Shown piece after piece: positions 4,414-6,828 of a stretch of 64,000 nucleotides of DNA (position 1 is its first letter; each line of letters starts with the position of its first letter). Below the pieces are notes generated by a model, which was not told where the DNA came from, ran no database searches, and worked only from the letters and a program-made list of their open reading frames with translations. This stretch comes from Armatimonadota bacterium. Its GTDB lineage: Bacteria > Armatimonadota > Fimbriimonadia > Fimbriimonadales > Fimbriimonadaceae. The DNA lies in assembly GCA_020161505.1 (NCBI GenBank), contig JAIUNY010000011.1, forward strand, positions 1 to 64,000, given 5' to 3'. A program made the position numbers and the translations under genes.

Positions 4414-5754
4414 ATGAGCCTGCCAACAAACCGACGCATTCTCAGCGGGATGCGCAGCACCAACCCCAAGCTCCACATCGGCAACTACGAAGGGGCACTG
4501 CGCAACTGGGTGGAACTGCAGAACTCGGGATTCGAGATGTTCTGCATGGTGGCAGACTGGCACGCGCTCACCACGATGTTCGAGAATCCGCAGGATGTGA
4601 GCGTGAACGCGCGGGAGGTGGCCAAGGACTATATCGCAGCGGGGATCGATCCGGCGAAGTCGGTGGTTTTCATTCAGAGCCATGTAAAGGAGCACGCAGA
4701 GTTCCATCTGCTGCTCAGCATGGTGACGCCTCTCGGGTGGTTGGAGCGGACTCCGACTTATAAGGAGAAGGTGCTTGACTTGCGGAAGTCATTAGTTCAG
4801 AAACTTTACTCTAGGATTTCGGAACTCATTGAAGCGGATAGTGCGACGAAGTTGCGTGAAGAGATTGAATCGATTCACGCTGACGACGGCGGACTTGCGA
4901 GTGCAGCGGTGGGGCTCTCGGACTCACTTACCAACGCTGCCTTGAGTCTTCAACACGATTTCACCCGGTTTGAACAACTGCTGCGCGAGTGTGAAATCGG
5001 ATTCGGCAAGCTCGATACCATTCTGGAACGCAAGGATCCATCGTCGGTGTCACCGAGGCTCAGCCAAGCGATGGTCGAGACCAGCCTTGGCATACATGAA
5101 CTCAGGACGATTCTGGACAGCGAGCAAGAGGTATCGATCCCCTACGGACTCCTCGGCTACCCGGTGCTCCAGACGGCGGACATCCTCCTTTATCGCCCTC
5201 ATGGAGTCCCCGTCGGGCGCGATCAGGCGCCGCACCTGGAGATTGGCAACGACATCGCGCGGCGATTCAACAACCTCTACAACGTCGAAGTCTTTGAGCC
5301 GTACAAGTACATGATCCCTGAGGATGAGAATCGGGCGAAGCTGCCGGGGCTGGATATGCGCAAGATGTCGAAGAGCTACGACAACTGCATTTATCTGAGC
5401 GACACTCCTGACGAAACGGCGGCGAAGATCAAGAGCGCGTTTACGACCCCCACGAAGATGCGCAAAACCGATCCCGGCATTCCCGAAGGGTGCGCGGTTT
5501 GCCAGTATCTGAAGCTCTATTCGCCGGATTGGGAGCGGCAATGGGCCGAGGATGTGGCGGGTGAGCGGGGCTGCATGCAGAGCAAGCAGGAGCTCACCGA
5601 GGTCATCAACGAGTTCTTCCGCCCCATGCGGGAGCGGCGGGCTGCGCTCGACGACGCCACCATTGAGGACATCCTCCGCGATGGGGAAGCCAGAGCCCGA
5701 GCAGTGGCTGCGGAAACGATGGAGTCCGTTCGACAAGCCATGGGCCTGCGATAG
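4414..5754 (+). CDS. trpS: Tryptophan--tRNA ligase with a 120-residue internal insertion
   Basis: This class I synthetase charges tRNA-Trp. The signature PKLHIGNY (HIGH motif, near residues 19-25), the KMSKS motif at residues 317-321, and YPVLQTADILLYRPHGVPVGRDQ-type active-site residues around 249-271 are all present. GGGAGGAT directly precedes the ATG. The family is normally 330-350 residues; this one has 446. The excess is a helical, charged block at residues 121-240 (bases 4774-5133), between TPTYKEKV and SIPYGLLGYPVL, where E. coli TrpS has only a short linker. The block has no intein splice residues. The reading frame is intact and all catalytic motifs are kept, so the protein is probably functional. 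The matching tRNA-Trp gene is at 19908. Confidence 0.93.
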   Translation: MSLPTNRRILSGMRSTNPKLHIGNYEGALRNWVELQNSGFEMFCMVADWHALTTMFENPQDVSVNAREVAKDYIAAGIDPAKSVVFIQSHVKEHAEFHLLLSMVTPLGWLERTPTYKEKVLDLRKSLVQKLYSRISELIEADSATKLREEIESIHADDGGLASAAVGLSDSLTNAALSLQHDFTRFEQLLRECEIGFGKLDTILERKDPSSVSPRLSQAMVETSLGIHELRTILDSEQEVSIPYGLLGYPVLQTADILLYRPHGVPVGRDQAPHLEIGNDIARRFNNLYNVEVFEPYKYMIPEDENRAKLPGLDMRKMSKSYDNCIYLSDTPDETAAKIKSAFTTPTKMRKTDPGIPEGCAVCQYLKLYSPDWERQWAEDVAGERGCMQSKQELTEVINEFFRPMRERRAALDDATIEDILRDGEARARAVAAETMESVRQAMGLR

Positions 5755-5895: not shown

Positions 5896-5904
5896 TGGTA
5901 TAGT
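5896..5904 (+). promoter_or_regulatory. Extended -10 promoter for riboswitch operon
   Basis: TGGTATAGT gives a TGn extension plus a good -10 hexamer (TATAGT, 5899-5904). No convincing -35 box lies 16-18 bases upstream, which fits extended -10 promoters. Transcription would begin near 5911, just ahead of the aptamer. Confidence 0.6.
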
Positions 5905-5910
5905 AGAGGC

Positions 5911-6034
5911 ACGTCGAATCTGGGTGACGCCCAGAACGGGGGAACCAATTCTGGGGTGAAGCGCCTGATGAAAGGCGTAGGTCGTTCTTGAACCTAACCC
6001 GGCAGCTAACCTCGTAGGCGCAATCAAGAAGTTC
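5911..6034 (+). promoter_or_regulatory. Cyclic di-AMP riboswitch (ydaO/yuaA type) aptamer
   Basis: The leader carries the conserved blocks of the ydaO/yuaA aptamer in order: GAATCTGGG with a CTGGG/CCCAG hairpin, AACGGGGGAACCA, TTCTGGGGTGAA, two variable hairpins (GCGCCT with AGGCG; AGGT with ACCT), then CCCGGCAGCTAACCTCGTAGGC. The last block is almost invariant in known examples. Ligand-bound ydaO RNAs usually switch genes off. Here the downstream genes are two small proteins of unknown role rather than the usual potassium transporters, osmolyte carriers or cell-wall hydrolases. Aptamer boundaries are approximate. Confidence 0.9.
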
Positions 6035-6076
6035 GGAGGCTACGTGCCTCCCCTGACCGACGAACGAAGGAGGTAC
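6035..6076 (+). promoter_or_regulatory. Putative translational expression platform of the riboswitch
   Basis: Two mutually exclusive pairings are visible. GGAGGC (6035-6040) can pair with GCCTCC (6046-6051). Alternatively GTGCCTCC (6044-6051) can pair with GGAGGTAC (6069-6076), which contains the AAGGAGGT ribosome-binding site of the first gene. No T-run terminator lies between aptamer and ATG, so control by hiding the ribosome-binding site is the likelier mode. Which state the ligand favours cannot be read from sequence. Confidence 0.5.
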
Positions 6077-6080
6077 ACCT

Positions 6081-6350
6081 ATGTCTTTCGTCAGCCAGAT
6101 TATGCGAAAGGCGAGCATCGTCGAAAGAAGCGATGCAGCGCCAGTCGAAAAAGCAGAAAAACTCGAACAGCTCGTGAGCGAAGCGGACACGATCCGTGAG
6201 CGAATGCAATCGTCGTTTATGCGCTTGAGCGCCAATGAGATGGAAACACTCGGCCCAGGACGCATGAAAGAAATTGCTCAGCTTGATGAAACCAAGCTGA
6301 AGCTGAAAGAGAAGGTTCTGCTGTTTCTGGGCAAAAACCGTTCGGCCTGA
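6081..6350 (+). CDS. Small coiled-coil protein under c-di-AMP riboswitch, unknown
   Basis: The 89-residue protein is not one I recognise. It is hydrophilic and almost wholly helical, with heptad-like stretches (VEKAEKLEQLVSEADTIRER and METLGPGRMKEIAQLDETKL), and no signal peptide or membrane segment. A strong AAGGAGG sits 7 bases before the ATG and takes part in the proposed riboswitch platform. It is the first gene of a two-gene unit with the small hairpin-like protein that follows. A cytoplasmic scaffold or partner role is possible but unproven. Confidence 0.7.
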   Translation: MSFVSQIMRKASIVERSDAAPVEKAEKLEQLVSEADTIRERMQSSFMRLSANEMETLGPGRMKEIAQLDETKLKLKEKVLLFLGKNRSA

Positions 6351-6373
6351 TTCTTCTGAGCTTTCGTCGTTTT

Positions 6374-6408
6374 GAGAGAGCCGATTTTGTTGAGTGATCG
6401 GCTCTCTC
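6374..6408 (+). other. Intercistronic hairpin between the two riboswitch genes
   Basis: A perfect 12-bp stem (GAGAGAGCCGAT, 6374-6385, with ATCGGCTCTCTC, 6397-6408; 11-base loop) lies between the two small genes. CCCTGATCCTTT follows rather than a T-run, so it may be a weak terminator, a processing site or an mRNA stabiliser that lowers expression of the second gene. Confidence 0.65.
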
Positions 6409-6441
6409 CCTGATCCTTTATTGCATAGGAGTACGCAGAAA

Positions 6442-6768
6442 ATGAGCGAAAACATGGAGAAATTTAGGCACATGGATGGCAGCGATGCCGTCATTGAAAA
6501 GCCTTACATCAAGATTATTTTCCAGCACGGAGGGGCGCCAGAACAAGTCGGCGTCAACGGGTGCCGATTGGAAGATGTCATCGAGATTCTTCAAGAGAAG
6601 CTGCTCGATTTTCAGGGGCGTGATTTGGACTGCGATGAAAACGCGACCGCCCTCTATCACCTCGATCTCGCACGCGAAGCCTTGCTGCTTCGACGCAAGC
6701 GACGGGAGGCGCAAGGACTCCTCGGCGAACGAGCGAGGCATGCCTCTAGCGACCTTGCCGGGGTTTGA
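6442..6768 (+). CDS. Small protein resembling phage-type Acb2/Tad1-like helical-hairpin proteins (tentative)
   Basis: I start at ATG with TAGGAG 10 bases upstream; an in-frame GTG at 6394 lies inside a hairpin. The 108-residue protein reads KIIFQHGGAPEQVGVNG (residues about 23-39), then EDVIEILQEKLLDFQ, then CDENATALYHLDLAREAL and RREAQGLLGE. This pattern of FQxG, VGVNG, a helix, C-x-ENA-x-AL and a second helix ending R-x-x-G recalls small phage and prophage proteins that I associate with the Acb2/Tad1 hairpin group, which sequester cyclic nucleotide signals. The match is from memory of the motif and not from a search. Location directly downstream of a c-di-AMP riboswitch makes a nucleotide-binding role plausible. 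Cytoplasmic. Confidence 0.5.
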   Translation: MSENMEKFRHMDGSDAVIEKPYIKIIFQHGGAPEQVGVNGCRLEDVIEILQEKLLDFQGRDLDCDENATALYHLDLAREALLLRRKRREAQGLLGERARHASSDLAGV

Positions 6769-6788
6769 TCGCCGGTAGCGAGTCAGGA

Positions 6789-6828
6789 TGTCCCGACCCA
6801 GAGGGGATCGGGGCACCCGACCTTTTTT
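6789..6828 (+). terminator. Possible terminator formed by a REP-like palindrome
   Basis: TGTCCCGACCC (from 6789) pairs with GGATCGGGGCA (to 6814), followed after CCCGACC by TTTTTT (6823-6828). It sits 20 bases past the small gene and ahead of the convergent phosphatase gene. The gap between stem and T-run makes it weaker than the other terminators here. The same palindrome recurs at 52068 and 52186, so it may be a repeat that also terminates. Confidence 0.5.

Follow-up and report, generated by a model that had tools for sequence, protein, structure and literature searches.

A c-di-AMP riboswitch that is followed by two small genes raises the question of what a cell might do with the signal that such an RNA reads. 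The locus considered here lies in a stretch of 64,000 nucleotides (the window), which lies in contig C34 of a 3.14-Mb Fimbriimonadaceae (Armatimonadota) genome. The precedents for this riboswitch class, the ydaO/yuaA RNAs upstream of Bacillus subtilis kimA and Corynebacterium glutamicum nlpC, belong to the same Rfam class and have targets in potassium transport and the cell wall, whereas the products here are a Tad1-family protein, as judged from sequence and predicted fold, and a small helical protein.

A riboswitch-led transcription unit

The elements of the locus are listed below in window coordinates.

5899..5904, plus strand: −10 promoter element TATAGT, immediately 5′ of the aptamer, read from the sequence
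5902..6035, plus strand: c-di-AMP (ydaO/yuaA) riboswitch aptamer, RF00379
6034..6080, plus strand: leader from aptamer to gene 1, with a hairpin and then a Shine-Dalgarno sequence, without a U-run terminator
6081..6350, plus strand: gene 1, 89 amino acids, predicted three-helix protein
6374..6408, plus strand: intergenic hairpin of 13 base pairs without a U-run (81-base fold, −25.6 kcal/mol)
6442..6768, plus strand: gene 2, 108 amino acids, chromosomal protein assigned to the Tad1 family
about 6786..6828, plus strand: intrinsic terminator, a stem followed by CCTTTTTT (−22.1 kcal/mol)

The covariance model RF00379 aligns to 5902-6035 of the plus strand over its full length (model positions 1-134 of 134) with 80.1 bits and an E value of 5.2e-17, well above the gathering score of 38, which bears out the riboswitch that a preliminary description of the locus had recognized by eye. 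That description also placed the two small open reading frames correctly, and each has a Shine-Dalgarno sequence, AAGGAGGT at 6067-6074 for gene 1 and GGAG at 6428-6431 for gene 2. Its extent of 5896-6768 needs revision at one end only: the start agrees with the promoter, but the terminator carries the unit to a total span of about 5896 to 6828.

TATAAT-like (GGTATAAT-like) boxes occupy the same site in relatives from the genus, and in two of these TTGACA is also present at normal spacing to the −10 box. The presence of this box at the same place indicates that the aptamer opens a transcript of its own. Both open reading frames have dN/dS values of 0.00-0.06 in close pairs (G002/G004 and G005/G006), with changes mostly at third codon positions, indicating that both are real genes under strong purifying selection. 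Promoter, riboswitch, gene 1, gene 2 and terminator thus appear to constitute a single transcription unit in which the two genes are presumably co-transcribed. The hairpin at 6374-6408 may either weaken the gene 2 message by reducing read-through or stabilize it.

Within the leader, the hairpin GGAGGC-TACGT-GCCTCC lies 5′ of the Shine-Dalgarno sequence, and no terminator with a U-run was found in 6034-6080, suggesting that control is probably exerted at translation. In lacking a terminator the RNA resembles the nlpC riboswitch of C. glutamicum. Leader folds computed in the apo and aptamer-constrained states do not reveal whether the switch is ON or OFF. Characterized c-di-AMP riboswitches are OFF switches, one of them translational (PMC9960051). 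A diadenylate cyclase (PF02457) is encoded in all 37 genomes searched, including that of the window. The same genome has a second c-di-AMP riboswitch on the minus strand (G000:C6:98752-98897; loci L002 and L176), which precedes an apparent small membrane protein of about 100-140 amino acids.

Assignment of gene 2 to the Tad1 family

Tad1 proteins are hexamers that sequester gcADPR or cyclic oligonucleotides, and each subunit combines an N-terminal beta-sheet with two long C-terminal helices. The Acb2 fold instead consists of a short N-terminal helix and a helical hairpin, without a beta-sheet. The preliminary description had assigned gene 2 to the Acb2/Tad1 type on the basis of the pattern FQxG - VGVNG - helix - CxENAxAL - helix. 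This pattern is present, and its core (Q28, G31, G37, N39, G40, C64, E66, N67, R84 and R88) is invariant among 42 relatives, as are Q58, L74, A77, Q91 and H100.

Sequence searches, PHROG assignments and the predicted fold all agree with this family call and place gene 2 nearer to Tad1 than to Acb2. Single-sequence searches retrieved the solved Tad1 proteins (phmmer E values of 1.6e-4 to 3e-4) and phage gp184 (4.8e-5), and a profile of the 42 relatives reached CmTad1 at 5.9e-15 and CbTad1 at 3e-10. Among PHROGs, gene 2 scores best with phrog_2428 (E 3.7e-14); all 42 relatives match this family, and the CmTad1 and CbTad1 fragments have it as their top PHROG too. Top matches in BFVD include proteins named Acb2/Tad1 hairpin domain-containing, and no sequence match between gene 2 and Acb2 was found.

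The AlphaFold2 model of gene 2 is moderately confident (pLDDT 78.6) and contains a beta-hairpin, a GxNG loop and two long helices (strands at 17-20 and 23-27, helices at 43-58 and 65-90), which is the sheet-plus-two-helices architecture of Tad1 with a shorter sheet. In a Foldseek search of the PDB, the best 20 matches of this model are all Tad1 chains with a probability of 1.00, and VIA comparison with Tad1 gives Z 8.8 over 90-93 residues. For T4 Acb2 (7uq2) the alignment is limited to the helical hairpin of the model (54 residues, Z 5.2), and unrelated helical hairpins rank alongside it. On both sequence and model, gene 2 therefore belongs to the Tad1 family as a host-encoded member.

Residues F82, N92, R109 and R113 of CbTad1, which we take to be important for ligands, align with F57, N67, R84 and R88 of gene 2. 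Position 57 is F, Y or H within the gene 2 family. These conserved positions are a lead on the residues that might contact a ligand.

A candidate c-di-AMP circuit and its ligand

We give roughly even chances to the reading that gene 2 encodes a host Tad1-family protein whose dose is set by the riboswitch and which binds c-di-AMP or a close cyclic nucleotide. The protein would bind this ligand stoichiometrically, as a receptor or buffer, while c-di-AMP, acting on the leader RNA and probably at the level of translation, would set the amount of protein. If the switch behaves like its characterized counterparts, the genes would be OFF at high c-di-AMP. Synthesis of the gene 2 protein at low c-di-AMP would keep the free pool small, so that a latch or positive feedback is expected rather than a homeostatic buffer, which would require an ON switch. 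Alternatively, the protein may act together with gene 1 as an effector of the low-c-di-AMP state. We infer the ligand, the oligomeric state, the direction of regulation and what gene 1 contributes; taken as a whole, the circuit is plausible, and comparative genomics anchors it well.

The proposed binding of c-di-AMP or a related nucleotide follows from what Acb2 and Tad1 bind. T4 Acb2 binds 2′,3′-c-di-AMP with a Kd of about 62 nM (PMC12657218), and Acb2 has high affinity for 3′,3′-cAA (reviewed in PMC12043709). Tad1 binds cyclic dinucleotides, cyclic trinucleotides (CTNs) and gcADPR, but CbTad1 binds 3′,3′-cAA weakly (PMC12043709), which counts against c-di-AMP as the ligand.

The range of nucleotides bound by Tad1 also bears on a second reading, which we regard as unlikely, in which the ligand is an immune nucleotide (a cyclic trinucleotide, cGAMP or gcADPR). 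Gene 2 would then temper the host's own nucleotide immunity, and the riboswitch would only tie its dose to the state of the cell. In favor of this, gcADPR and cyclic trinucleotides are established Tad1 ligands, and CD-NTase genes (PF18144) track with gene 2: within families f1 and f5, each of the 14 genomes that have a CD-NTase carries gene 2 as well, corresponding to 14 of 68 carriers and none of 25 non-carriers, the latter counted by hand in these two families (Fisher 0.008, a value that ignores relatedness). This association points tentatively to a host protein that dampens the immune signalling of its own cell. Invariant N67, R84 and R88, together with an aromatic residue or His at position 57, are likewise consistent with an immune ligand, given the presumed roles of their CbTad1 counterparts. 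However, 54 of the 68 carriers, including the genome of the window, have no CD-NTase match, no immune genes adjoin gene 2 in the loci compared, and PADLOC gave no match.

Recurrence of the riboswitch-gene 2 linkage

In 16 genomes, which represent 8 genera, a riboswitch lies 5′ of gene 2 on the same strand at a distance of up to about 1 kb, and the combination of riboswitch and gene 2 thus recurs in related genomes. The linked genomes comprise all eight of the window's genus (G000-G007) as well as G014, G017, G018, G024, G031, G132, G156 and G163. These counts were obtained by joining the places of gene 2 and of RF00379 matches and by scanning upstream of most remaining copies, with G158 covered by the RF00379 search of the genomes alone. 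About 0.02 copies would be expected to be linked by chance. Five changes are required to explain the linkage on the gene tree, of which at least three gains or losses are forced by well-supported branches, showing that it is recurrent, although the deep branches have little resolution and so gains cannot be distinguished from losses. Most gene 2 copies, a second one in genus mates among them, have no riboswitch. Of the 68 genomes that carry gene 2, 52 yielded no riboswitch-linked copy, suggesting that the circuit represents only one of the ways in which a wider host protein family is used.

It is improbable that the riboswitch serves gene 1 and that gene 2 merely follows as a passenger. Other riboswitches of the order do precede helical proteins like that of gene 1 without gene 2, and a stable hairpin separates the two genes at the present locus. 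In G018 and G163, however, only 47-49 base pairs separate the riboswitch from the gene 2 start codon, and neither gene 1 nor any other gene lies between them. Moreover, the intervening gene changes from genus to genus while gene 2 remains.

Gene 1 has close sequence homologues only in the window's genus, and no viral relatives were found. Its model is a confident bundle of three helices (pLDDT 92.6) for which structure comparison returned only generic three-helix bundles, none of them significant in Foldseek, and for this reason we claim no function for gene 1. Searches of Pfam and NCBIfam at E values up to 10 gave nothing useful for either gene.

Many other c-di-AMP riboswitches in Fimbriimonadales precede small helical proteins with an MLTExxVRRE...RKARRLLR... 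pattern (L033, L040, L044, L045, L048, L049, L050 and others). Profile comparison links two such groups to each other with 93% probability, and links gene 1 weakly to one group (67%). From these positions and profile links, the order seems to have an apparently undescribed c-di-AMP regulon made up of small helical proteins, with gene 2 added to it in some lineages. Several further riboswitches of the order precede a hisB-like gene, as read from its translation.

A host branch of the family

The Tad1 fold might also have been reused for a role that does not involve nucleotides, for example a structural or protein-binding one, which we consider quite improbable. The Pfam entry PF24729 (Acb2_Tad1_hairpin), against which the preliminary description had proposed to compare the 108-residue protein, matches neither it nor any other of the 42 members in hmmscan even at E 10, yet passes on the CmTad1 and CbTad1 fragments, and the N-terminal region of gene 2 is unlike that of Tad1. 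Against such reuse, conservation within the family is highest at the motif residues that gene 2 has in common with Tad1, and gene 2 recurs in a c-di-AMP regulon.

A profile search found gene 2 in 68 of 291 Armatimonadota genomes, confined to two families of one order. Its neighbors are chromosomal and vary between genomes; in the window they include trpS, a metallophosphatase, S41 peptidases, rpiB and rpsT. Annotated phage records yielded only three weak matches. The suggestion that gene 2 is a stranded phage or prophage gene, prompted by the phage origin of its known relatives, is hardly credible and is contradicted by its conservation in 68 genomes among housekeeping neighbors such as trpS, rpsT and rpiB, by an identity of 54-77% for most copies between host genera compared with 34-39% to the closest viral relatives in IMG/VR, and by gene 2 dN/dS values of 0.02-0.06. 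The chromosomal, non-phage location proposed at the outset is therefore upheld.

Most genus mates have two gene 2 paralogues, one linked to the riboswitch and one elsewhere (L004, L005, L010, L095, L097 and L101-L103), and the unlinked copy often lies behind a GH38-like gene, as read from sequence. Only the riboswitch-linked copy was found in the genome of the window. The neighboring trpS (4414-5754, plus strand) is itself unusual: at 446 amino acids its product is longer than usual, with Pfam tRNA-synt_1b matched in two stretches separated by about 100 apparently helical residues, and with a weak Mod_r match at 135-223.

Relation to known systems and implications

Tad1 (Thoeris anti-defence 1; CmTad1, 8kbb; CbTad1, 7uav) shares with gene 2 its PHROG, the beta-hairpin, the GxNG loop, the long helical hairpin and the FQ...EN...R...R positions. 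Unlike phage Tad1, gene 2 is known here from host genes without a phage link, is chromosomal and conserved in Fimbriimonadales, has a shorter N-terminus, escapes PF24729 and stands under a c-di-AMP riboswitch in 8 genera. Acb2 (phage anti-CBASS 2, T4 Vs.4) has a similar helical hairpin, forms cyclic-nucleotide sponges and binds c-di-AMP isomers, but it lacks the beta part and is the weaker structural match. A limited literature search, in which absence proves little, found no paper tying Tad1 or Acb2 to a riboswitch and none on c-di-AMP riboswitches in Armatimonadota.

Panoptes (OptS/mCpol with OptE/2TMbeta) is a host system built around c-di-AMP and its capture by proteins of the Acb2/Tad1 type. 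In Panoptes the sponge comes from the phage and the decoy from the host, whereas at the present locus the sponge-like protein is a host product and c-di-AMP is read by an RNA. A similar logic, read by RNA, could operate if a phage enzyme or sponge depleted cyclic dinucleotides and so released the OFF riboswitch, whereupon gene 1, which encodes a fast-changing small helical protein, and the Tad1-like protein would be made as a response to the depletion. We regard such an RNA-based guard as very improbable.

So far, Tad1 and Acb2 have been familiar as proteins with which phages sequester immune nucleotides. That Tad1 has a host branch, conserved across an order and tied repeatedly in evolution to c-di-AMP-sensing RNA, suggests that nucleotide sponges may have a normal role in second-messenger biology, and that they are perhaps of host origin. 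The same linkage would add a new class of small proteins to a c-di-AMP regulon so far associated with potassium transport and the cell wall.
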